Shown: in pieces, positions 16,310-64,000 of the stretch | How positions within the stretch are numbered: the first letter of the stretch is position 1 | Layout of the letters: every line of letters starts with the position of its first letter | From: Agrocybe praecox | Lineage: Eukaryota; Basidiomycota; Agaricomycetes; Agaricales; Agrocybaceae | Length of the DNA stretch: 64,000 nt | Assembly (NCBI GenBank): GCA_964017145.1 | Contig: OZ024847.1 | Coordinates: 2,356,001 to 2,420,000, forward strand | Direction: 5' to 3' | Notes under the pieces: model-generated | The model's database searches: none | What the model was told of the DNA's origin: nothing | What the model saw: the letters and a program-made list of their open reading frames with translations, nothing else | Translations under genes and position numbers: made by a program

Positions 16310-16964
16310 CAGCACTGGCTGTCTTCACAAACGAAACACTCCAAATGTTACTGCAATTTACCGAGCCCATTTGAAGACTTCAAAATTTTGCTACACTTGG
16401 AGGAACATCTGGAAATGTTTTATATCCATGATTCAGGACGGTATCGTATTTGAACGAGTTCATTGTCGTCTATGTCCCCGAAGGTGTTGACCTCGCTTGT
16501 GTGACAAACGTCACTGTCACCTCCGGAGTTCAGTACCGGTCCCCGCCCGAGGTGTCGGCTTTCGGGAACGGTCGCGTAAAGAGAAAAGCGCTGAGAGGGT
16601 CGAGCTCGCTGAAGGAAGGGTTCAAAGAAATCTCAGAGGCAGATAACATTCGATAAAGCAGGGAAAATAGGGTGCAGAAATCCAGAGAGTGTCCAAGGCC
16701 GCAAAAGAGAGATACACCAGGAGAATTTCGGAGGCGGAATAATCGTGAAGATTCTGGCAATCCAGAAAGCACAGATATTCATAGAAAGGATGGAGTACCT
16801 TGTCGACCTTGGAACGGCTGTGCTAGTCACCCAAAAAAAACCCCAATTTCCAGCAAAAATTTCTGCGTGTACATCCTCGTCCTTCACGAACCCCGGTCCA
16901 TGTAGCTGGATGGGCAGTCCATTCCTCTGTTGCTGAACATCTTGCTGAACATACAGCCATAGCT
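16310..16964. other. Unassigned sequence left of the KDZ element
   Basis: Open frames on both strands (for example FIVVYVPEGVDLACVTNVTV at 16458-16520) have no recognised homology. No match to the 5' end of the PUF gene on the other side of the element was noticed. Confidence 0.3.
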
Positions 16965-17644
16965 GCTAATATTCTATATGAAATATGGGCAGTTGCCCAA
17001 ATAGCTTTATAAATGCCTGGGGGCAGTTTGCTACCTGCCCAATATGGAAGCACTCAAAAAGGATGGCTTTTTCGTGCCGTGAGGTGGCATATATAGGCAT
17101 GTGATGACCTAAAGAGAGCGGGGATAGGTCACTCTGTGGCCGAGGTGCCGTCCAGGGGGCGGGAGAGTGATATATAGCATTGGCGGGCAGGCGGGCATAG
17201 GCCGACACAGCCACATCCGTGCCAAACGCACGAAACAGCATCCTTGGACGTCGAGCACGCTAGTTTGATGGGTTGGGGACGGAATTGGCGCGGGAAACTT
17301 CTCCATAAGGGATATACCTATTTTAGAGAATTTTTGGCGCCCTTTGTGCGCCAATTGGGAGGAGGGGAGGGATGGATTGGCGAGGATGTAGTTGGATGAC
17401 GCTCTGGATAATATTATCTAAATATAGTTACCGGCGCTGTGCTATTTTTGAAATAGGCGGGCACTACGGCTATTTCTGAAACACGGCTGTGGACTTTGTC
17501 TAGACCGTCAGATTAGATTAGATATTGGAACCATATCTATTTTAATACAGCGCGCTAACGGCCATTTCTCAAACACGGCTGCAGACTTTGTCTAGACCGT
17601 CAGATTAGATTAGATAATTATTTACGTGTAAACTACGTCTATTT
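16965..17644. repeat. Left terminal inverted repeat of the KDZ element
   Basis: Matches the reverse complement of 29028-29708. The outermost 60 bp contain GGGCAGTTGCCC and GGGCAGTTTGCTACCTGCCC. The inner part enters the subterminal repeats. A long open frame inside (17109-17354, minus) is present in both arms but is a by-product of the repeat. Confidence 0.9.
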
Positions 17645-17815
17645 TAATACAGCGCTAACAGCTATTTCTCAAACACGGCTGCAGACTTTGTGTAGACCGT
17701 CAGATTAGATTAGATATTGAAACCAGATCTATTTTAATACAGCGCGCTAACGGCCATTTCTCAAACACGGCTGCGGACTTTGTCTAGACCGTCAGATTAG
17801 ATTAGATATATCTAT
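17460..17815. repeat. Subterminal tandem repeats, about 95-bp unit, four copies
   Basis: Each unit contains the words ATTTCTCAAACACGGCTG, GACTTTGTCTAGACCGTCAG, ATTAGATTAGATA and TATTTTAATACAGCGC. The right arm keeps only two copies (29045-29215). Such repeated subterminal motifs are typical transposase-binding sites. Further AGATTAGATT words occur at 17862 and 18020. Confidence 0.85.
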
Positions 17816-29027: not shown

Positions 29028-29708
29028 AAAATAGACGTAGTTTACACGTAAATAATTATCTAATCTAATCTGACGGTCTAGACAAAGTCTGCAGCCGTGT
29101 TTGAGAAATGGCCGTTAGCGCGCTGTATTAAAATAGATATGGTTCCAATATCTAATCTAATCTGACGGTCTAGACAAAGTCCACAGCCGTGTTTCAGAAA
29201 TAGCCGTAGTGCCCGCCTATTTCAAAAATAGCACAGCGCCGGTAACTATATTTAGATAATATTATCCAGAGCGTCATCCAACTACATCCTCGCCAATCCA
29301 TCCCTCCCCTCCTCCCAATTGGCGCACAAAGGGCGCCAAAAATTCTCTAAAATAGGTATATCCCTTATGGAGAAGTTTCCCGCGCCAATTCCGTCCCCAA
29401 CCCATCAAACTAGCGTGCTCGACGTCCAAGGATGCTGTTTCGTGCGTTTGGCACGGATGTGGCTGTGTCGGCCTATGCCCGCCTGCCCGCCAATGCTATA
29501 TATCACTCTCCCGCCCCCTGGACGGCACCTCGGCCACAGAGTGACCTATCCCCGCTCTCTTTAGGTCATCACATGCCTATATATGCCACCTCACGGCACG
29601 AAAAAGCCATCCTTTTTGAGTGCTTCCATATTGGGCAGGTAGCAAACTGCCCCCAGGCATTTATAAAGCTATTTAGGCAACTGCCTATATATCATATAGA
29701 ATATTAGC
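29028..29708. repeat. Right terminal inverted repeat of the KDZ element
   Basis: Inverted copy of 16965-17644, carrying two rather than four subterminal units. Its terminus (TCATATAGAATATTAGC) lies 62 bp before the first ATG of the PUF gene. Confidence 0.9.
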
Positions 29709-29770
29709 ATATACAGGTGTTTTATGACTCTCCATCGCCTCGTCGTACAGACATTGGACATATTCTCCCT

Positions 29771-42600: not shown

Positions 42601-44460
42601 GAGCGGAGTAGAACCTGTAAACATGAGCGCTGGATTAATTTCACTAACCATTCTCGGAGCTCACCTCATCCTCAACCAAATTCCTCTCCCAGCTCTTTAA
42701 CTACGACTAAAACCTGTAAACGTGAGGCCTGCTTAATCTCGCTTATCGTTTGTGGACTTCCGGATCGTTACCCAAAAAATTTCCCAGCTCTTTGCTGCGA
42801 CTCAAACTTGTAAGCTTGAGTATGTGCGTACTGGGTAACGGGTTAATCATGCCAACCGTTTCGAGACCTCACCGTGGAGTCTTGTGTCGTATCCTCGGAA
42901 GGGCAAATCAAACAAAATGGCTTCGTGATACCCATCTGCTGCTCTACCCCTCGAGCTCAAGAAATCGGCTACTCGGACACATTCGACACCGAAACGGACC
43001 CTCGATAAATTTTACAATAAGGTGTATATTATTCTTGCTTGTTTATGTTACGCCTGATAGTTAACTCGGAACATGCGTTGCGCCTTGATCGTTGGGAATA
43101 CTGTACATATTTAGTCTTTCGCCCCAATTTCGCCCAAGGTAAATCTGAATGGATATGCATCAGGCAAGATAAGATTATCCTTGTTCGTGTGCCTACTGCA
43201 TATATTAAATCCGCTGTGATCCTTGGATTTGGCTTGGGCAGGCAGCGGAGTTGTACCCCTTCAACTTTCTGCTGAGAATTGCCACTCACTTCGATGTCAT
43301 CTGTTAGCCGATCTTACAGCCGTATTCATTACGATATGCCATGACACCAAAACACATGTACAAGTGGTTCTTAGAACATTGATTAATGAGCAAGTACAGT
43401 TCGGGACATCGTTCCTGCTGATCTCGTTAACCGTTTCAGGACCTAAGCCTCTTGATCAAAATAGCCGCCCATTTTTGACCTTGCTCATTTTGGGACCTGC
43501 CGCGTCGTTATTTCTTTACTTAGATCAAAACCCATACACTTGGGACGCGTGGTTAATCTGGCTAACCACTTCGGGATATTGCGATGTGCACTCTCTCAAG
43601 CTCTCAAGGGGCATTTCCCAGCTCTTGACAGCGGCTAAAACCTGTATATCTGAGCACTTGGTTGGGACTAACTATCTCAGGACCTCACCGTGTCATCACT
43701 CATGTTTTCCCAGGTCTTGACTGCGGCTAAAAGCTGTATATCCAAGCAGTCGGTTGGGTTGGCGCTAACTATTTCGGGACCTCCGATGCGCTCTCGCAAG
43801 CTCGCAAGGGAAATTTCCCAGCTCTTGACAGCGGCTAAAACCTGTATATCTGAGCACTTGCTTGGCGCTAACTATTTCGGACCCTCACCATATCGTTACC
43901 CGATTTTCCCATCTTTTGACTGCGGCTAAAACCTGTCTGTCTGAGTACTTAGTTAATCTCGCTAAATGCTTCGTGACCTTGTTCCTATTGATTTCGCTAA
44001 CCATAATGGGACCTCAGCCTCAAAATAGCCGCCCATTTTTGACTGTGCTTATTTTGGGACCTCACCGCCTCGTTACCCATTTTCCGTCTCTTTACTTAGA
44101 TCAAAGCCCGTAAACGTGGGGCCCATAGTTAATCTCGCTAACCACTTCGGGACATCGCAAGGGAAATTTCCCAGCTCTTGACAGCGGCTAAAATCTGTAT
44201 ATCTGAGTTCGCGCTAACTATTTCAGGACCTCACCGCGTCATCAACCATTTCTTCCCAGCTTTTGACCACGGCTAAAACCTGTATATCTCTGAGTACTTG
44301 GTTAATCTCGCCAAATACCTCAGGACATCGTTCCTGTCAATTTTGCCAACTATTTCAGGACCTAGAATAGTCGCCCACTTTTGACCATGCTCATTTTGGG
44401 GCCTCACCGCTTCGTTACCCATTTTCCCAAGCCATGGTTCGATCGGTATAAGTCGGCTAA
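42600..44460. repeat. Satellite family, array 1
   Basis: More than ten irregular units of roughly 100 bp built from the words TTAATCTCGCTAACC, TTCGGGACCTCACCGC, CCCAGCTCTTGACTGCGGC, TAAAACCTGTATATCTGAG and CAAAATAGCCGCCCATTTTT. Open frames here (for example 43223-43720) are by-products of the repeats. Arrays 2 and 3 are at 47870-48790 (inverted) and 52290-53030. Confidence 0.9.
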
Positions 44461-47869: not shown

Positions 47870-48790
47870 TGCGAGAGCACTTCGCGATGTCCCGAAGTAG
47901 TTAGCAAGATTAACCATGGGGCCCAAGTTTATGGGTTTTGATTTAAGTAAAGAGACGGAAAATGGGTAACGAGGCGGTGAGGTCCCAAAATAAGCACAGT
48001 CAAAAATGGGCGGCTATTTTGAGGCTGAGGTCCCATTATGGTTAGCGAAATCAATAGGAACAAGGTCACGAAGCATTTAGCGAGATTGACTAAGTACTCA
48101 GACAGACAGGTTTTAGCCGCAGTCAAAAGATGGGAAAATCGGGTAACGATATGGTGAGGGTCCGAAATAGTTAGCGCCAAGCAAGTGCTCAGATATACAG
48201 GTTTTAGCCGCTGTCAAGAGCTGGGAAATTTCCCTTGCGAGCTTGCGAGAGCGCATCGGAGGTCCCGAAATAGTTAGCGCCAACCCAACCGACTGCTTGG
48301 ATATACAGCTTTTAGCCGCAGTCAAGACCTGGGAAAACATGAGTGATGACACGGTGAGGTCCTGAGATAGTTAGTCCCAACCAAGTGCTCAGATATACAG
48401 GTTTTAGCCGCTGTCAAGAGCTGGGAAATGCCCCTTGAGAGCTTGAGAGAGTGCACATCGCAATATCCCGAAGTGGTTAGCCAGATTAACCACGCGTCCC
48501 AAGTGTATGGGTTTTGATCTAAGTAAAGAAATAACGACGCGGCAGGTCCCAAAATGAGCAAGGTCAAAAATGGGCGGCTATTTTGATCAAGAGGCTTAGG
48601 TCCTGAAACGGTTAACGAGATCAGCAGGAACGATGTCCCGAACTGTACTTAGTGAGATTAATCAAGTACTAAGATATACAGGTTTTAGCCGCAGTCAACA
48701 GCTGGGAAAGAATGGATAATGATACGGTGAGTCGTGATACGGTTAGCGAGATTATCCAATTTACAAGTAACGACGGCAGATATGTGACCG
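47870..48790. repeat. Satellite family, array 2 (inverted relative to array 1)
   Basis: The same words as at 42600-44460, in reverse complement. The inner 770 bp form the right arm of the inverted structure. Confidence 0.9.
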
Positions 48791-53600: not shown

Positions 53601-56583
53601 ATGGTAGAAACATCGGAGTCTATACAGCAAGGTAATGATCCTTAATTGAGGTCTTAACTCTCCCTTACTACTTACTGAATATATTGCTCCAAGACATCGC
53701 AGAAATCCGTGTTCTCTTAGCCCAGTGCCGTTCTTCGCTTGAAAACGCAGAGCAGGAGCACACTCGAGTTGTGAGAGAACGGCGCCCCAACAAGCGTCAG
53801 TGTCCTCATTTTGTGACGAGATTAAACAATTCAAACTCCTCTACAGGACGGGTCAATGAGGCTCATATCCTGGCTTGTAAAGCCAAGATATCTTACAACA
53901 ACACAGTCGAAGAACTTGAGAGATTATTAGAGAAACAAAATACTATAATGGACATCAAGAAAGACAAAACTCTGGACTCTTTAACCAGCTCCCTCACTGC
54001 ATTATCCTCCGATAACGATGTGCCTACCTCAAGCGCCCAAAAGGCGAAGGAAAAGTCAGGTAAATTCCTTAACGTGTAGATATCTGTGTGCGGGAGCTAA
54101 TAATAATTTTACTACTGTAGACTGGAATGCCCGTAATCGTATACCCAGTAAAATATCAATCAGCAGGAGCACTACTTCCAAAGCAGTTACGCAGACCGTC
54201 ATGCCAACTTTGCAAAAGCAATTGGATGGAGCTTCCGAGGAAACAAATGACTGCGGCAACTCCCAGGAGAGCGGAGATGATAACTCGAAGAATGGCGCTA
54301 AACTTACTGCGACGAAGAAAACGTTGTCGACCATCTCCGCAGTTACCAGAGGATCTGACTATGAGAGTGGCGAGTCCGATAAGGTGCTTGCTGCGGGGTT
54401 GAGTGTGTATGTACGATTTGTACTTTGTATATACTCCGAAACAAAACCCAATCAATGTGATTAGTTCTTTCGTGGGAGGGATACGCGATACGCGTCGTTG
54501 ATTATGTTTTCTCTCTAAAGATACGCTCTCTAATGCAACAGAACGTTTCCTAGGATCGAAGATCACAAGTGCTTGAGTAGCTTACGCACAAAGCGAAGTT
54601 CCTCGGAAAGTGTAAACGTAGATTTAATGTGTTTCCACAAGATGTAGTGTGTAGGTAGTTCGCCACTTAGGCTGGATACTTAATCCCAAGTCTTTTAATC
54701 ACTTAGAAAGGGGACTCAATCCTAAACGGGCCACTTAGGCGTCACTTAGACTATTTGCCACTTAGGCAGGGAACTTATCCCTTGGAACGGGCCACTTAGG
54801 CGTCACTTAGACAATTTGCCACTTAGGCAGGGAACTTATCCCTAGGAACGGGCCACTTAGGCGTCACTTAGACAATTCTTGCCACTTAGGCGGGTATTAA
54901 GCTTTATGTCACTTAAGACAGAGGAAACTTTATCCCAATACGTTTATTTAGGTTCCTCGAGAACTCTGCAAGTTAACTCAAGTCGCTCAACTAACGCCAA
55001 GATGCTCAAATGACACGGTAGGTAGTCTGTTCAATAAAACCAGCTCTCGCGGAGATTTATTAGGTACCAAAGGTCGATCCTAGGAGTTTGCAACTCAATG
55101 CGCGTTCCTCGAATGTGGACAACTGGGTTCTAGTTTATCTGGGGTGCTACGGTAATTTACAGGCTGCTTATATACTGCTAGGTTTCGGAAAATACAGGAA
55201 TACTTGGAGCGGATCGGAAATGCTCGGAAAATACAGGAAATAATATTATTGGTTAACGCTAGGTAGCTCCACTCGATGCATAAGCAACCAGTAGGTACCA
55301 TGCGTGTTTTTGTATACCCTCGGAAGGGTTCGTATGGTTGGGCAAGTCGCTGACTCGAGCATGACGCTCCGAGGGCGCTTATTCGCATTAGCCGACGATC
55401 ATTGATCGACGTCGTAGGGTCCGAAGCATCGGAGTACCGTGGTATCGTATGGATCTATAATCCTCGGCTCCACAACTGCCGTTTAAGGTAACTGCGCATA
55501 TCCGAGGGTCTTAAGACCATGTGTAAGCGTTCCTAGGAACTTCTCCTTTTAGGTTTATCAGCGATCTGACTCGAGCAGACGTCGGCAAGTCCTAATTGAC
55601 ATTACTAGTGCTTGTCTCGTCGTTTGCATAGTGCCCACTATGTTCCTAGGGACCAGTAATGTACTTTGTTAATGCTAGGATCAGTCCTACCGCCTTGAGT
55701 TAGCGTTCCTAGGAACGTTGGCAGTAGTTTACATGTACTTTCATATGGTGGGAACTTTTCGTTTCCATATTAGGTAGATGTGGACGCATCGCGCACTGCG
55801 TAATAATAAGTGGCTATAGCGCCGTTTAAGCTTATTATCAGCAGGCTCTAGCTTACATTCCTGATGGTTGAATATTATCCTAGGAGCCTTTGATCCTGCT
55901 GCATTGCTGTTAAAGCGTTCCACGCATTTCCGAGGAACTACTATAACTAACTCTAGCATTCGTAAGGTTCGTCCTAGGGTTCGTAGAATGGTTTCCCCTA
56001 GCCAAACATGTAGCTATCCTCGCTCTGTACTTATGTAGACTTAATAATAAACGTGTTTATTATGCCGAAAATTAAGTAGGATAGATACTTGGTTAAAGTT
56101 CAGTCACAGCCGAACACCAGTCGTATCACCGGCGACGACAAAGCCCCTATCATAAACACGACTTCATTGACAAACGGGGCCGCCTCCGACGCTGAAAGCA
56201 ATGATGACAAGACTGACTACAATAACGCGAAAACTACTTCGTCCTCTAACGAATATGTTTCTGATAAGAGGGATGACACGGACGACGATCAATCTACCGA
56301 CATGGAAGGCATTTCGTCCAGCGAATCTGATTCTGAGAATGGCAAGTCGAATGACGACGGTAGAGCAGCTCTCGCGAAAAACTCCTCCTCCTCCAGCGAA
56401 TCTGATTCTGAGATTGGCGAGTTGAATGACGACGGTAGAGCAGCTCTCGCTAAAAACTCCTCCTCCAGTGAATCTGATTCTGAGAGTGGCGAGTCCGGCC
56501 AGTCGAATGACAACGGTAGTGGAGCAGCCATCACAAAAAACTCTTCTTCCTCCAGCGAATTCGACACTTCAGTGAACCAGTGA
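53601..56583 (+). CDS. Coiled-coil and acidic-Ser-rich protein with a repeat-filled intron (386 aa)
   Basis: Four exons in phase: 53601-53631, 53694-54059, 54121-54404 and 56104-56583. The start is MVETSESIQQ. A charged helix follows (IRVLLAQCRSSLENAEQEHT, then YNNTVEELERLLEKQNTIMD), probably coiled coil. The second half is Ser/Asp/Glu-rich. In the last exon a unit like GRAALAKNSSSSSESDSE is repeated three times with small changes, and the protein ends SSSEFDTSVNQ. The third intron is about 1.7 kb instead of the usual 60 nt and contains tandem repeats, so it looks like the site of a repeat insertion. No domain was recognised. SDSE tracts are typical casein-kinase-2 targets, which is inference. 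Splicing across the long intron is unproven. Confidence 0.55.
54660..54915. repeat. Tandem repeat inside the 1.7-kb intron
   Basis: About three units of 60-66 bp with GCCACTTAGGCGTCACTTAG, ACAATTTGCCACTTAGGCAG and GGAACTTATCCC. Further along the same intron the palindrome GTTCCTAGGAAC occurs at 55526 and 55706, with variants at 54553 and 55640. Confidence 0.8.
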
Positions 56584-56639
56584 CATTGTCTCTTAGACAT
56601 GTTAATTCCTGATAGGAAATAGACCTAAGAGGATGTCCA

Positions 56640-56990
56640 AGTAATATAATGTTATATGATAATGTTATGAATGAAACATTATTTGTCACAAAAAGATGTT
56701 TATTTTATAAGAACATTATATCATTTTGAGAATGTTATTTTGTTTTTATAAAACATTATCTCCACACAAAACATTATACTATTTTTGAAGAGGTATCAGT
56801 AGGACTTCATGAACATAGATACAAACTTTACAGCTTGATAAACCTGAATGTATATCAAATATGAAAGTGGACTTAAAAGCTCAGAATTTGAGACTTGGTA
56901 AATGCATGTGTACTGCATAAGACTTGTTGTACATGTAAATGTAAATTTATTATCAAGCAACAGCAGAAACATGAACACCAACAACAACAA

Positions 56991-57035
<45 letters not shown>

Positions 57036-57400
57036 TAGCAACAACAACAGCAACAGCAACAACAGCAACAGCAACAGCAACACATCAGACTCAGACTTTA
57101 TAACTGAAAGTTGAATGATTGAAGTGTCAAATGGACAAATGTTATGAAAACATTTTAAAACATTTCTTGTGTTCAAAAAATGTTTTTGTATTTTCAAATA
57201 ACATTATCCTATGAGCAAGTAATGTTTTTATGTGTGTACATAATGTTTTTATCTGTGTGCATAATGTTTTTATATGTGTGTAATGTTTTTATATGTGTGC
57301 ATAATGTTTTTATATGTGTGCGTAATATTTTTATACATGTGTGTAATGTTTTTATGTGTGTGAATAATGTTTTTATGTGTGAACACAAGTTTTTTTTCAA
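56640..57400. repeat. AT-rich repeat region with AACATTAT/ATAATGTT words and a minisatellite
   Basis: ATAATGTT and its complement AACATTAT recur many times on both sides of a microsatellite, suggesting a palindromic element. 57215-57385 is a minisatellite of about 24 bp (ATAATGTTTTTATGTGTGTG and variants), about seven copies. Open frames over it are artefacts. Confidence 0.75.
56978..57081. repeat. CAA/CAG trinucleotide microsatellite
   Basis: About 35 triplets alternating CAA, CAG and AGCAA-type interruptions. It is open in several frames (Asn/Ser or Cys or Leu runs), but no gene around it supports translation. Confidence 0.9.
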
Positions 57401-57788
57401 GCTAACAATTTTTGAAACTCAAAAATATCTTAACACAACTCAGAAGTCATTCTTAACACCAACAAAGTAACATCATATATTTATAATGCAAAAGAACCAA
57501 AAACAATGCCAAGCTGTGTTCCTAACCAAAGTACTTTATCATTCGAAAAAAAACACCAAACAAGTCTATCAAACAGCAAGTCCGAAAAGATACAGGACAT
57601 ATTAAAATGAATATCAAATATAAGATAAAAAAGTTTGACACACGAAAAATTAAAAAGAAATCAAAGTAAGTTTGCCAATATATCATGCAAGAAAAATTAA
57701 AAAGTGTATATAAAAAAAATACCCAAGCAAAACATGTCCAAGCAGGGAAGCAACAAAAATGAATCAAGTATATGGAGCAAAAAACAAA
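57401..57788. other. AT-rich 3' flank
   Basis: No gene. Probably contains the 3' untranslated region and polyadenylation region of the minus-strand gene that ends at 57789. Confidence 0.4.
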
Positions 57789-60700
57789 TTAGCGACGACG
57801 AATAACTCCAGAACTTGATCCTTCTCCCCTGTTAATATCATCCCTGATGGCATCATTATAATACCTTTCCGAAGTCAGTTCAATTGCAGCAGGATCATCA
57901 TCAACACTCCTGCGAAGAACATGTTCATTTCGAGATTGAGCAAGGGAAGGAGCTCTATGAATGGTGCGTCCTTGATGGAAATCAAGACATTTTCGAGCAG
58001 AGGGAGGATCACGATGGTAAGAGGAATAAAAATTCGCAGGTGAGGTCTTTGACTGGGAAGCTGCCATTTCTCCCAAGTATGAACGTGAGGGTTGGCTTGG
58101 ACCAGCAGGATCATACTTTCGTGTTTGATGTTTGACATATGGCTGATAGTGTTTTGAAGGAACAGCTAATGCATGATAGGCATTTGAACCAAGATCTCCA
58201 CGTCGTGCAACTGGAATGATAGTCTCATGAGGCATAGAAGAAGGATCTGCCCCTTCATGAGGCTTGGCAAGACGCATTACAGGAAGATCTTCAAACTCAT
58301 TCTCATCCAAGCGATAAAGTTCTTTACGACCTTTACCTTCACCCTCAGAGTCCACAACTATATAGCCATGAAATTCATCACGGGGTGGGGGAATATAATG
58401 AGAAGATGGATCAAGTAATGGATGGAGGACAGGTTGTCGATAACGATATTTGGAGTTGACAGTGGGATTGGGTGCGGGATGAAGTGTAGGATTCAACATC
58501 TTAGCAGGCTTTGAAGAAGTGATAGGTGAAGTATCCAGTTGTTTCCTCGTAGGTATACGAGGAGGGTCAGCAGGAATATTAGCACCAGGAGACGATGGCT
58601 GAGTTGTTATACCTCTCGGTTGTTTCCTCGTAAGTTTATCACCATTAGAAGAGAACCCTTTCGTATGACAAATCTTGATAAGAAAGTCATCTGCCGGGGA
58701 TATTATAAGGGGAATTTGGCCATATTGAGGAGATTCAGATGACAAATCTAATTCATCTGATAAAAGGATTTATAGTCAAATCAATAAGATAAAATAAACA
58801 GAAAAAGCGGTCATACCTTCAGTCCATGATAGAAATTGAATCCGTTTGTCTTTAAGTCTTTCATAAAGTTTCTTCCAACGGCCTTGCTGATCCATAGTGC
58901 TTAAGTTGAAGGATCCACTGCCAATGATCATGCCATTGAAAACCTCTGTTGGCCAGCCTATAAGACGGATCTTGTACTTGAGGCATTGTTCCACCAGGAT
59001 ATTCCATGGACAAGTTTGGCGAGCATCACCAGTGAGAGAACCTGATGTTTCAAATCAATATAAGTTCAATAATCAACAGAAGAGTGTAGAGACATACAAT
59101 AATCTTCCATAAGCAAAGCTGTCGCAGCCTTTCGGAAGTCATGAATAGTTTTGAGTTCAACTTTCCCACCAGTAGCCTTTTCGATGGCATTGTTGATGGC
59201 ATATTGCTCGATACGTTTCGGTAAGGTGACTTTGTGAGCTTGTTTGACAGCAGGGTCAACGACAATTATGGCATTTCCAAGGGAGTTGGGGTCCTTCTTC
59301 GTCAACAGCTCATCAAGCTGTAAGGTAGCAACACGTCCTCTGTGATAAGAATGATCAATAAATACAGTTTATTATATATATATATATAAACATACCTAAC
59401 CATATCAGTGAACATGTCAAGGAGTGGTTGGATCTTAACCTTATTCTCGTTGATAAGTTGGGTCGTAAATTGCGACCCACTGACCAGGCAGACTTTTTGA
59501 CGAGCAGCCTGGTCATGACTGATTGTCGTGACGATCCCTACAAATATGATATCGCCATTGACCATGCAGATTTGGGCACCCTACGACATATTGAGAAGGA
59601 GCATTGTTTCTCATGAAATAAAAACTTACAGTTTTTGAGAGCTCGTTTGTGGCCTGGGCCATCCGCGTCGAAGCCGATTTGAGGAAGCGAGGGTCATTTC
59701 CATATTGCTTGACCTGCTCTTCCAAGCTGCGCTTGTACTCGAGGAATTCCTTCGGGGTCATTGAGTCCACAGTGGCATGGTACTCCCGCAAACCCTCTGC
59801 GTTGTAATCAGCACCTAGACATAGACAGAAAATTAAGTATAATTAGTTTCAAAGGATAGATAAAGAACATACCAGGAACATTGTCCGTCTTCGGATTCCT
59901 AAGGGCACGAAGGCAGATGAAATTGTTGTAGCAGCTTGTCTCGCGATGCGTCTTGACGTTGAGGCCACTCAAATTGATAACGTCGGCGTTGGACGTCTCG
60001 AACTCCCTCGCAAGTGCCGATATTTCTTGATGAAACCTGACACCGAGCTCTTCGCATTTCTTAACGAGGGCAGAGGGCTTGCGACCTCGTCGAGTGGCAA
60101 ATTCCCCCTCTACTTCGGTGTTGAGATCCACGTCGGCAATGGTCTCGATGTTGGGGAGCTGCTCCTTATCAACGAGGAGCTCGGTGGCCTTTCCCTTTCC
60201 CTTATTCTTGCAGGGGATGGCAGGACTGGATGCAACGACGTCCCTTTCCATTGACAATTCCTCCTCAACATCCTTCTCTTCCTCTGACTGCGAGAGACGA
60301 CGTTCGTTCCTAAAATCCCGGACCAAGTTCACCCCAGCTCTTGATTCTTCGTAGTCGCTGCCGGAATCCTCACTCTCAATAGGAGTAGCAGCGCGTGGGG
60401 GGGACGAAGGCACTACTTCGGCTAGGTCTCGTTGTTCAGATGGTGTACGATGGGATGGCTCCAGAACCGCAGGAGAAGGGTCCGTGTTGGCACCTGGAGT
60501 TGGGGATTCGGTTCTGCGTTGAGGGGTGGACTGAGGGCTCTCGATACGTTGGAACATAGAGGCCGAAGAGAATCCTGGGTTAACAGGAGGAGTCGTAAAA
60601 ACATCTGCCATAGCAGGAGCGGTCGGTAGCTGGACCGAATATAATGTAAATTAAGTATATACATGATTTTCATGGTGCATACCTGCTGATTCCCTGTGCC

Positions 60701-61710
60701 CTCTATGGCGCCGCTCTTCCGTGCTTCGCGGTACTCCTTCGCGATTCGTTTCGTGACGCTTATATTGAAAAAGTCGTCCGTGGGCAGAGCATTCAAGATG
60801 CTGGTCAAGCCTCGGTTCATCCGTGGTGTGGGCCTGGGACGGGGGGCAACGGGTTCAACGGGTTCCTCCTGAGCGGGAGCAACCTTCTTGGAGCGTCGGC
60901 CACGCTTAGCAGGAACGTTAGTGGATATGGATCCAGTATGTCTATAGTATATTAGAAATGTACAAAACAACAAACTTAATAAACTTACTGAGTTCTGGAC
61001 CTCGTTACACGACCGCCTTGGACATCACTGGCGATGTGATTGGAGGTTTCCTTCTCTTCGTCGGCCAAGAGTACCTCTTGAGGTTGCGGACTAGAAAAGG
61101 ATTGATTAGACCGAAAGTACCGAAGTAAAGAACACTACTCACAGACCGCCACGACGTGTGGAACGTCGAAGAACGTCATTAACAGTACCCGCACGAGCAG
61201 GCGAAGGTCCCGAACGAGTATCGTCCTGGATGGCCTCCGCAGGTTGTGACGGTCTAGGAGAATCGTAGGAGTTAGCGCACGAAGCAAACCCACATTACAA
61301 CCTCAAGAGACGGGCCCTTCATTGTGCGACACAGTCAGCACAGCAAGGATAAGAGGATTGCGACACAGTCAGCAACCCTCCCTCCCCAGCGACACAGTCA
61401 GCTGGAGAACCGTTTCCCTAGGCGAAATGCAGGCGAAAGGAAGGGAGTTGGGGCTTACGCGGGTGCGCAGGTGGCAGGATTCTTGGGTGGTCGACCTCGA
61501 GGGCGCTGAAAGGAAGGGAAAATGAGCATATACGAGTCAGTCATCGGTAACGAACATACCTTGGGGGCCACCACGACGTCTTGTTCCTCCTCGTTGGCCT
61601 AGGCGAAGAGCCCATTAGTGTTGATTAAGAAAGGGGGAGGGGACCGTACTCACCACGCGCTTCCGTTTGCGTTGGTTGGTTTCTGGCTTTCCTTTGCGCT
61701 TCGGGGGCAT
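57789..61710 (-). CDS. Large 12-exon protein with AT-hook, unknown function (1058 aa)
   Basis: Exons: 61710-61654, 61598-61560, 61505-61459, 61253-61143, 61090-60989, 60941-60683, 60629-59873, 59814-59630, 59580-59396, 59339-59098, 59041-58817 and 58756-57789. Every junction is GT-AG and in phase. The N-terminus is basic (MPPKRKGKPETNQRKRKR). An AT-hook core RPRGRPPKNP follows near residue 33, then STRRGG and KRGRRSKKVAP: minor-groove DNA binding is likely. A folded central part has VTKRIAKEYREARKSGAIEG, ARREFETSN-type helices, DYNAEGLREYHATVDSM, GAQICMVNGDIIFVGIVTTI, DFRKAATALLMEDY and TCPWNILVEQCLKYKIRLIG with WPTEVFNGMIIGSGSFNLST. The C-terminal 300 residues are disordered. The order resembles Agaricomycete hypothetical proteins I have seen, with no assigned function. 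Intron 3 (61254-61458) contains one of the four triple-hairpin modules. Confidence 0.85.
61323..61405. repeat. Triple-hairpin module A (inside an intron)
   Basis: Three copies of the loop GACACAGTCA at 61328-61337, 61362-61371 and 61391-61400. Their flanking arms pair as TGTGC/GCACA, AGGaTTGC/GCAAcCCT (one mismatch) and CCAGC/GCTGG. The module lies within intron 3 of the 1058-aa gene. Confidence 0.85.
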
Positions 61711-61931
61711 ACTGAATGAAGGTGGTGGTTGTAAGAGAGTTGAAAGGTAGGTGTGCTGGCCAAAATTTCTCGTCAGGATATATCGTATGCTAACTCAGGG
61801 ACGCGATATTAGTCGCTGATCGTCGCTGATCGGTCCCCGAACTTTCGCTTACGACTTCAGGCGGTGGAAGATAGGGGGGAATGGATCGACTCTGGACCGA
61901 CTCTGGATCGCATAGCGAATAGAACAATCCC
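61711..61931. other. 5' flank of the 1058-aa gene
   Basis: Likely promoter and leader of the minus-strand gene. TCGCTGATCG occurs twice in tandem near 61814-61833. No gene. Confidence 0.4.
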
Positions 61932-62013
61932 ATCGCTGTGCGACACAGTCAGCACAGCGATCCATTTCAGCGACACAGTCAGCTGAAAGGGACGGAGCGA
62001 CACAGTCAGCTCC
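61932..62013. repeat. Triple-hairpin module B
   Basis: Loops at 61942-61951, 61972-61981 and 61999-62008. The stems are ATCGCTGTGC/GCACAGCGAT (10 bp, perfect), TTTCAGC/GCTGAAA (7 bp, perfect) and GGAGC/GCTCC (5 bp, perfect). Confidence 0.9.
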
Positions 62014-62275
62014 ACATGTAGATGTAATGTGATGAACGGGAAAGAGTCAGGGTTCGTTTCATAATGTAAAGACGGTCGCAGAACATACCTGTTTCGAAAT
62101 ATTGATTCAATGCTGAAATGTGCGCAATTGAACCAATAATTAGCCTTCAGTAAGCTTGTGTTAGGGAAAGTTTGAAGATATTTAGCAGGGAACGAGCAAC
62201 AGAAGGTAAATTCGATGTAGTTTGATTGAAGATGAATGAAGTCGTCAAACTTGAACTTGAAGAATCAGAATCTCC

Positions 62276-62360
62276 TTGTTGTGCGACACAGTCAGCACGA
62301 CAATCCAACTCAGCGACACAGTCAGCTGAGTTGGCACAGAGCGACACAGTCAGCTCGGTG
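62276..62360. repeat. Triple-hairpin module C
   Basis: Loops at 62285-62294, 62315-62324 and 62343-62352. The stems are TTGTTGTGC/GCACGACAA (9 bp, one G-T), CCAACTCAGC/GCTGAGTTGG (10 bp, perfect) and CACaGAGC/GCTCgGTG (8 bp, one mismatch). Confidence 0.9.
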
Positions 62361-62435
62361 AGGAGAGAGGGGTACGATGAGAAGGACGACGATGGGTAAC
62401 TGGTGGAGGAATGTCGGACCAGGCTAGCAATGAAC

Positions 62436-62520
62436 TCGTTGTGCGACACAGTCAACACGACGATCCAACTCAGCGACACAGTCAGCTGAGTTGGCACCGA
62501 GCGACACAGTCAGCTCGATG
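62436..62520. repeat. Triple-hairpin module D
   Basis: Loops at 62445-62454, 62475-62484 and 62503-62512. The stems are TCGTTGTG/CACGACGA next to a C-A mismatch at the loop (the only copy with an altered core), CCAACTCAGC/GCTGAGTTGG and CGAGC/GCTCG. It is a diverged 160-bp tandem copy of module C. Confidence 0.9.
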
Positions 62521-63079
62521 AGGAGAGAAGGATGCGTTGATAACAATGGCGATGGGTGACGATGGGTAAGAATGTGGTGCAGGTGTTTGATAAGAAGTGA
62601 AATTCGACTTGTAAGTTCATTTCAACTTCGGGCCGATGTTCTTATCTATTCTTATCACATTTTCTAATTTTATCCAGGTTATTTGTTTGCGGTAAATATC
62701 CGTGACGCGTGACGTTTGTTGAACGCCAGCTCACACGCTCCTCATTGTTCCCTTCCTACTTCCAACCCTTCCATTTCTTTCTCTTTTTCAATACTTTACA
62801 CTGCCCCACTGATTCCTGGTGGAGTCCAGTGGAGTCCACATAGTCCCATAGAGTCCAGTGGATTAGCACACTTTTTTTGCTGGATTCCACTGGAGTCTGG
62901 TGGACTCTACTGGACTCCATCCAGAATCCTGTCAAACTTAGTGGAAACTTGCTGTTTGCATATTTTATGCAATGCCACTTATGTTAAAAAAACATAATAT
63001 TCACCAAACACATAAGGATCACACAAAAAACATATGAAAAAGCGAAATTTATTTAAGAAATGCTTAATATACATGATGT
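62521..63079. other. Intergenic with a palindromic TGGAGTCCA cluster
   Basis: 62815-62935 contains repeated TGGAGTCCAGTGGA-like words in both orientations on either side of a T-run, so it can fold back on itself. It is probably the remains of a small palindromic element. No gene. Confidence 0.6.
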
Positions 63080-63682
63080 TTATATACTTATATTACTTAG
63101 ATAATTATTTTTAATTGAAGATAATGGGGGGATGAGATTATAGAAAGGGGAGCACAGGGAAGAGGAGATGGGAGGGGATATGACAGAAAGAAGGGAAGTG
63201 GGTGGGGAGGAGGAAAGGGATGGGAGGAGGGACAGGGGGCCCAGCTTGTTGACAGAGGCGGTGAGCGAGAACACGGATTGGACGGGGTACTTACCTTGTC
63301 GTCCTAAATGCCCCGCCTTGCCACGTCACGCCCTCGCCGGCCTGGCCCCCAATCCCGCCCCCTCGCGTTCGTCAGCTTGTTCGCTGGGATCCGTCGTCTG
63401 TTTCGCCATGCGCGTCCGTCGTTATCGTCGTCGGCGTTGTCGCCATTCAGCCATGTCAGTCACATTCTTATATGAAATGTTGGTAGTTGCCACACTTAGT
63501 GCATATATCCAGAATGGTACCTACCAGGTCTGGCAGTTGCCAGCCCCATCTGTTTCACTGTCCAATATTCCTGACTGGTCATGTGCTGTGACTGGTTGTT
63601 ACTGATTGCATCAAAATCAAAAGCATGACTTTTTGCTTGCCTCTATTTACACATTCAGGGTCCATTGCCACAATTTTATGGC
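63080..63682. other. Purine-rich then CG-rich low-complexity sequence
   Basis: 63120-63240 is GGGA/GGAGG-rich and 63290-63450 is C-rich with GTCGT words. A 145-codon open frame at 63168-63605 follows this composition bias and has no motif. Confidence 0.4.
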
Positions 63683-63882
63683 NNNNNNNNNNNNNNNNNN
63701 NNNNNNNNNNNNNNNNNNNNNNNNNNNNNNNNNNNNNNNNNNNNNNNNNNNNNNNNNNNNNNNNNNNNNNNNNNNNNNNNNNNNNNNNNNNNNNNNNNNN
63801 NNNNNNNNNNNNNNNNNNNNNNNNNNNNNNNNNNNNNNNNNNNNNNNNNNNNNNNNNNNNNNNNNNNNNNNNNNNNNNNNNN
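63683..63882. other. Assembly gap of 200 N
   Basis: Exactly 200 undetermined bases, the usual placeholder for a gap of unknown size. Anything spanning it cannot be interpreted. Confidence 0.99.
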
Positions 63883-64000
63883 GGTGCGCCATTGTGGTTC
63901 GCAGGTTCGTTGTCGGCTGTCGTTGGCGTGTTGTCGTATCGTCGTCGCCGTGGCCATTGGCGTGTCGTCGTTGTCATCGGGTCGCCGTTGTCGTATCGTC
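63883..64000. other. GTCGT/CGTCG low-complexity sequence
   Basis: Imperfect GTCGT repeats similar to 63410-63440 on the other side of the gap. Such a repeat may have caused the gap. Confidence 0.6.

Follow-up and report, generated by a model that had tools for sequence, protein, structure and literature searches.

The 64-kb stretch of DNA analysed here (the window) runs at its right end into a complete KDZ DNA transposon of 15,046 bp, which extends from window position 56565 to C8:2427610 and of which positions 56565 to 64000 form the in-window part. The element is bounded by the 7-bp target site duplication AATTCGA (56558 to 56564, with the right copy at C8:2427611-2427617, beyond the window), and starts with a left terminal inverted repeat of 67 bp (56565 to 56631, plus strand) that is 87% identical to the right end. 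It appears to be inserted into a Ser/Asp-rich open frame. A second copy of the same element, on C2, has 71-bp terminal inverted repeats that are 100% identical and the 7-bp target duplication AGAAGCG; both copies end in CACTTC..GAAGTG, i.e. they have termini of the CA..TG type. The KDZ transposase domain (PF18758) was found at L034:3-1901 (E=8.9e-57, 192.7 bits), and the same transposase scored 213.1 bits, with no internal stop, in a genome-wide search for this domain. The genome contains at least 176 matches to the domain, versus none in any of 14 control genomes; this KDZ load and the introns suggest a mushroom-forming fungus as the host. Further to the right of the element, at L034 6800-9901 on the minus strand, we noted by eye a retroelement-like frame with reverse transcriptase- and integrase-like stretches.

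The passages on Kyakuja in PMC12730594 report 7-bp target duplications and 5'-CA..TG-3' termini, which, like the KDZ transposase domain, are also found here. The same passages describe Kyakuja of Laccaria bicolor as lacking terminal inverted repeats, whereas the present element has repeats of 67-71 bp. The element is thus KDZ for certain, but not a proven Kyakuja, and since it has terminal inverted repeats, unlike the reported Kyakuja, we label it Kyakuja-type. Some members of the superfamily have a linked TET/JBP dioxygenase; Pfam detected none in six open reading frame pieces whose exons were left unjoined.

The element contains three genes, whose limits and exon models were read by eye: L on the left (minus strand), R1 on the right (plus strand), and the KDZ transposase behind R1. 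R1 was itself considered as the KDZ transposase, and this was rejected, as R1 is an accessory gene and the transposase a third gene. L extends from 57789 to 61710, with a likely ATG at 61710-61708 and several exons in the by-eye model, and its product is largely low-confidence or disordered. AlphaFold models of L and R1 were poor (pLDDT 47.2 and 38.7, respectively) and therefore unfit for a fold search. Six pieces of R1, the transposase and L matched no Pfam family above the cut-off. For R1, no homologue was present in the large protein set searched, and comparison with the PDB by sequence gave one match, with an E-value of 0.98, and no recognised domain.

Between and within these genes lies a set of hairpins. 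The first-pass annotation had described twelve cores in about 1.2 kb, and the sequence GACACAGTCA indeed occurs exactly twelve times, at 61328-62512, on the plus strand throughout. With up to one mismatch there are 16 matches in the window, a number reached by none of 100 shuffles (mean 4.1, maximum 9). The twelve cores make up four triple-hairpin modules spanning 61319-62521 on the minus strand, namely modules A (61319 to 61409), B (61933 to 62017), C (62276 to 62361) and D (62436 to 62521), and the core spacings, 34/29 in A and 30/27-28 in B-D, are as described in that annotation. Its count of four modules holds for the window; a fifth module, E (C8:2420975-2421045, on the sense strand of R1), adjoins it, 1 kb past the window edge, and more are found in other elements of the genome. 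The annotation made no mention of the host transposon, of the orientation in the sense of the genes, of the location in an intron or of a bulge and tip specific to each element, all of which are presented below or above.

Each module consists of three consecutive hairpins, about 90 nt in total. A hairpin is composed of a variable complementary stem (mostly 6-10 pairs), one bulged base, a three-pair GAC/GTC stem, which is the nearly invariant part, and a tip of 2-3 bases. The inverted stems reported around the cores are generally present, though a few are imperfect: hairpin 1 of module C has one T.G on the strand used in the first-pass annotation, and hairpin 1 of module D has a C.A on the plus strand, equivalent to T.G on the minus strand. 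The sequence bears out the reported difference between C and D in hairpin 1, whose eighth pair changes from T-A to C-G. Modules C and D share an origin by duplication, and B is related to both. A hairpin covariance model (default filters, E<=5) recovered 11 of the 12 window hairpins and had no other match in the 64 kb, and a three-hairpin covariance model recovered all four window modules at E-values of about 3e-12 or better; both models were built partly from the window hairpins.

An insertion of about 2 kb is nested between modules D and E of the C8 copy, with an outer end at 62794 to 62836 (plus strand) whose inverted partner occupies L031 4283-4325; in the C2 copy, the sequence runs through this place uninterrupted. 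It includes 200 N bases at window 63683-63882. Window positions 62818-62921 hold GGAGTCCAGTGGA-type repeats with inverted copies, and weak, sub-threshold Rfam matches to microRNA precursors.

Module A is contained in an L intron of 205 nt (GTAAGC...CTCCTAG, 61254 to 61458, minus strand), and homologous introns surround module A in the C2 and C9 copies, all as judged by eye. A protein-coding sense for module A was rejected, since the module is intronic in both C8 and C2. Modules B-D are located upstream of L, at 220-810 bp from its start codon, and could be promoter DNA there; 74 nt separate the end of module E from the likely start codon of R1. GTAAG or GTATG also occurs upstream of several other modules.

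In the whole 59-Mb genome, GCGACACAGTCAGC has 28 occurrences, as opposed to none for its backward control, and 26 of these fall in two places, the C8 element and C2 at 3.716-3.742 Mb. In C8, the modules are arranged as A B C D on the L side and E on the R1 side. The C2 copy keeps this order, but has three C/D-like modules instead of two, and its A-to-B gap contains about 23 kb of inserted sequence, versus 0.5 kb in C8. A diverged element on C9, whose R1 and L are 49% and 40% identical, has four modules of the same types, with core-to-core spacings of 27/34, 28/30, 28/30 and 27/33, compared with 29/34, 27-28/30 and 28/33 in C8. Its stems differ from those of C8, and its bulge is A rather than T.

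A genome scan for three GAC-N3-GTC cores in a row gave 24 matches with a T bulge (1 in the control) and 2 with an A bulge (0 in the control), and triple cores with two-base tips gave 4 (0 in the control); these counts include both-strand duplicates, and one match, C4:37988, resembles a simple repeat. After manual merging, the triple-core matches represent 27 places, of which 23 are within 5 kb of an R1 relative, and another, C2:3741383, is inside the same element. The remaining three, C276:4909, C276:5558 and C4:37988, have no R1 relative within that distance. Two R1 matches with stops (C276:15866 and C10:2307623) have no module within their 1.5-kb flanks. A transposon carries 4-6 modules, and the R1 proteins of module-bearing elements share only 31-49% identity.

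A tally over 30 modules revealed that bulge and tip depend on the element. The bulge is A in all 12 hairpins of C9, T in all 15 of C8, and T in all others counted. The tip is TGT in 15 of 15 hairpins in C8 and 15 of 17 in C2, while C9 has TGT in 8 of 12, with TGC in 3 and TAT in 1. Among further elements with a T bulge, those in C276, C9 at 1.54 Mb and C148 have ATT or ATC in 25 of 25 hairpins, C2 at 2.53 Mb has ATT in 6 of 12 and AAC, ACG or AGC in the other 6, and C8 at 1.70 Mb has TT in 2 of 3 and CT in 1. The idea of one identical tip throughout each element was dropped on recount; only the bulge is uniform per element. Prokaryotic or viral relatives were also considered and rejected. The triple pattern by itself is found in 17 viral stretches and in at least 119 bacterial ones, and re-scoring, which covered 97 loci (17 viral and 80 bacterial), returned 125 pattern matches without matching stems, the best having 12 of 18 inner pairs.

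To analyse the pairing of the stems, we used cores chosen solely by their sequence, with five core words at 24 loci. Seventy-one of 83 exact cores had a same-strand neighbour and were kept; of the 12 excluded cores, 11 also have a stem by eye, and C9:1180923 has none. Among the 62 distinct arm pairs, the 6 inner positions include on average 5.31 Watson-Crick pairs, versus 2.72 +/- 0.13 when the 3' arms are swapped (z about 20). The first-pass annotation had proposed that selection maintains the fold, and had named flanks no better paired than shuffled sequence as the outcome that would speak against it; at the genome loci examined, the arms are far more complementary than swapped arms, which supports the proposal.

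Covariation points the same way. In alignment A1, which consists of 61 distinct hairpins and leaves aside T4 hairpins and duplicate rows, the covariation score is 0.697, versus 0.165 +/- 0.016 after shuffling, with none of 500 shuffles reaching the observed value; 91.5% of cells pair (64% when shuffled), and 231 cells are changed on both sides (75 +/- 8 in shuffles). Since the rows are related, the shuffles overstate significance; slid structures, which are free of that fault, score at most 0.210. The unvarying GAC/GTC stem in A1 is a selection effect, because its cores were chosen by exact match. Alignment A2, comprising 25 modules, scores 0.630 versus 0.171; it excludes C9b_1, C2_B, C8b_1 and C2x_A, the modules L061 409-502 and L063 390-483, which were found later, and C2_E, because it duplicates C8_E. 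The arm-swap and covariation results reject a plain tandem repeat.

Outside the three hairpins, module A has a candidate closing stem, ACGG/CCGT in C8, ACAG/CTGT in C2 and TTGG/CCAA in C9. Over 28 of the 30 modules, the best outer stem scores 13.8, versus 12.1 +/- 0.45 with swapped flanks (maximum of 300 shuffles, 13.25). The outer closing stem is thus real on average, but not universal, being evident in some modules and missing from others, e.g. C276_4. Where present, it makes a four-way junction.

The strand that folds, reading T/A-GAC-NNN-GTC, corresponds to the sense of L in modules A-D and of R1 in module E, and it coincides with the strand of the neighbouring gene in all 15 modules of C8, C2 and C9. 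In other elements, R1 and the modules beside it have a common strand, and modules on the opposite side are directed away from R1. Among the inner six pairs, read on the sense strand, there are 26 G.U versus 8 A.C (two-sided binomial 0.003, with non-independent rows). This count covers 77 distinct hairpins from 30 modules, takes only hairpins with at least four of six Watson-Crick pairs, and includes related hairpins repeatedly. The ratio varies with the number of pairs considered (16:7 and p 0.09 for five, 43:23 and p 0.02 for eight), and an earlier count gave 24:11. Mispairs in the GAC/GTC stem are G.U in 4 cases and A.C in none. Because G.U exceeds A.C on the sense strand, the minus strand, as the sense of the adjacent gene, is more likely the folded one, in place of the strand read in the first-pass annotation. 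Predicted fold energies do not decide the strand, as they are lower on sense than on antisense in only 17 of 30 modules. The acting molecule is most likely RNA rather than DNA.

If it were DNA, the palindromes might extrude as cruciforms or single-stranded hairpins at a divergent promoter, where an element protein would regulate both genes. The positions of B-D upstream of the L start and of E upstream of R1 are a suitable place for promoter control, complementary stems without fixed sequence would also suit a folded single DNA strand, and the energies fail to favour the RNA sense strand. On the other hand, module A is within a gene, in an intron, in three element copies, the asymmetry between G.U and A.C favours a transcribed sense strand, and a reader of double-stranded DNA would not keep variable stems complementary. 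We regard control at the DNA level as rather unlikely, yet worth serious consideration.

It is less probable still that the modules are separate small non-coding RNAs, several per element, which serve an element protein as guide, decoy or sponge. The modules are compact and stable enough for this, and their similar tips in multiple copies would suit a sponge. A pyrimidine-rich stretch precedes many fungal start sites, and the 28 modules considered have one 12-50 nt before their first core (mean 0.71 near, 0.60 far and 0.63 downstream). Against such RNAs, module A sits between the 5' and 3' splice sites of a coding gene.

The modules are also part of a transposon and multicopy, as might be expected of transposase recognition sites that are required in cis for excision or insertion. 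Such binding ends should be present in every mobile copy and near the termini, but the modules are central. Moreover, three non-autonomous copies, of 383 bp on C5 (L065, C5:4095582-4095964), 1.9 kb on C6 and 2.1 kb on C3, have the element's ends and 7-bp duplications and contain no exact GACTGTGTC (T1/T2) core on either strand, and the module covariance model finds no match in L065, L066 or L067. Since copies that share these ends lack the cores, transposition can apparently do without the modules, and a role as recognition sites is very improbable, even if later loss from these copies is conceivable. A 20-base pattern from the element's ends has 37 genomic occurrences when up to two mismatches are allowed.

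Functionless repeats left by a copying mechanism can be largely dismissed: C and D (and also B) are related by duplication and template switching can create stem palindromes, but in all 8 comparisons of close copies the modules are more identical than the sequence beside them (p<0.01 for 6 of these), compensatory changes extend across elements with such divergent R1 proteins, the bulge is uniform within each element, and copying with inverted flanks, the alternative offered by the first-pass annotation, is made unlikely by stems that change yet still pair at unchanged module positions and spacings.

What we propose instead, and hold to have an even chance of being right, is that the triple-hairpin module acts as structured RNA within leaders and introns of L and R1, the divergent accessory genes, where a protein encoded by the element would dock and so tune the element's expression. 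The hairpin tips would be repeated docking sites for this protein, and its binding may interfere with splicing or with the use of L and R1 transcripts, by which the element would limit its own expression. The position in introns or leaders, the sense orientation, the stems that are free as long as they are paired, the fixed bulge and the near-fixed tips fit hairpins on which a protein docks. The presence of one bulge per element, and of another in a related element, argues for a reader that changes along with it, most simply an element protein. More tentatively, and in our estimate with well under even chances, each KDZ lineage may carry its own "self" code, consisting of a uniform bulge and a narrow set of tips (TGT-like, ATT/ATC or TT-like) that is read by a matching protein, with code and reader changing together.

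Hairpins of comparable design are known. The iron-responsive element and Smaug sites have a fixed tip and bulge and a stem that is free if paired, and our hairpins likewise present a near-constant tip on a freely varying paired stem; they differ in tip and bulge, and in occurring mostly in threes at near-fixed spacing. The iron-responsive element is defined by a CAGUGN loop with a C bulge, whereas the tips here are TGT, ATT, ATC, TT etc. and the bulge is T or A. Integron attC sites resemble the modules as well, in that one strand folds, leaves some bases unpaired and has stems of poor conservation; however, the modules are not at recombination ends, and copies without modules bear marks of transposition. 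In viruses and bacteria, control signals made of structured RNA are familiar. For eukaryotic cut-and-paste DNA transposons, we found no description of such a signal in open-licence PubMed Central, nor one of KDZ or Kyakuja elements with hairpins or structured RNA, and among the matches listed there for the core sequence the titles are unrelated.

In the searched portions of individual papers, the word 'hairpin' is absent and 'palindromic' occurs once, in an unrelated context, in the Kyakuja report (PMC12730594); 'KDZ' and 'hairpin' both occur, in unrelated places, in PMC5718144; and for Cryptococcus KDZ elements (PMC12810828), 'palindrom' occurs once and 'secondary structure' and 'stem' not at all. 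The closest functional parallel may be yeast RPL22: passages of PMC5755908 state that this protein can block splicing via a structured region of its own intron. That region, like module A, lies between a 5' splice site and a branch point, and negative feedback was proposed there. In those passages, it is one region per intron and a ribosomal protein, in contrast to repeated three-hairpin modules in a transposon, with bulge and tip varying by element and a binder that we only infer.

A search of Rfam (60500-63600, both strands, E<=1) gave three matches below gathering scores, none of them over a module, and the earlier statement that no described family fits thus holds for Rfam 15. The working principle, a constant tip on a free stem, is already known; the triple module, its transposon home and the element-specific bulge and tip appear to be new, at least to us. 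They point to an undescribed structured control signal inside the element's own genes. If the more tentative code reading is true, each transposon would recognise and control its own transcripts through its bulge and tips. Free stems, combined with a bulge and tip that switch as a set between related elements, would constitute a natural experiment in RNA-protein recognition and would offer a direct handle on self-regulation of large KDZ elements, and the covariance model is usable across many genomes.

Some minor observations concern other places. At C2:2896283 (L032 2275-2342), where the genome search for R1 gave no match, there is a lone hairpin, which has a T1 tip and about 10 stem pairs; nearby, the module model gives weak matches. 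In the window itself, two pairs of long inverted repeats are present, one 99.6% identical (16964-17645 and 29028-29709) and one 98% identical (43369-44158 and 47884-48674).
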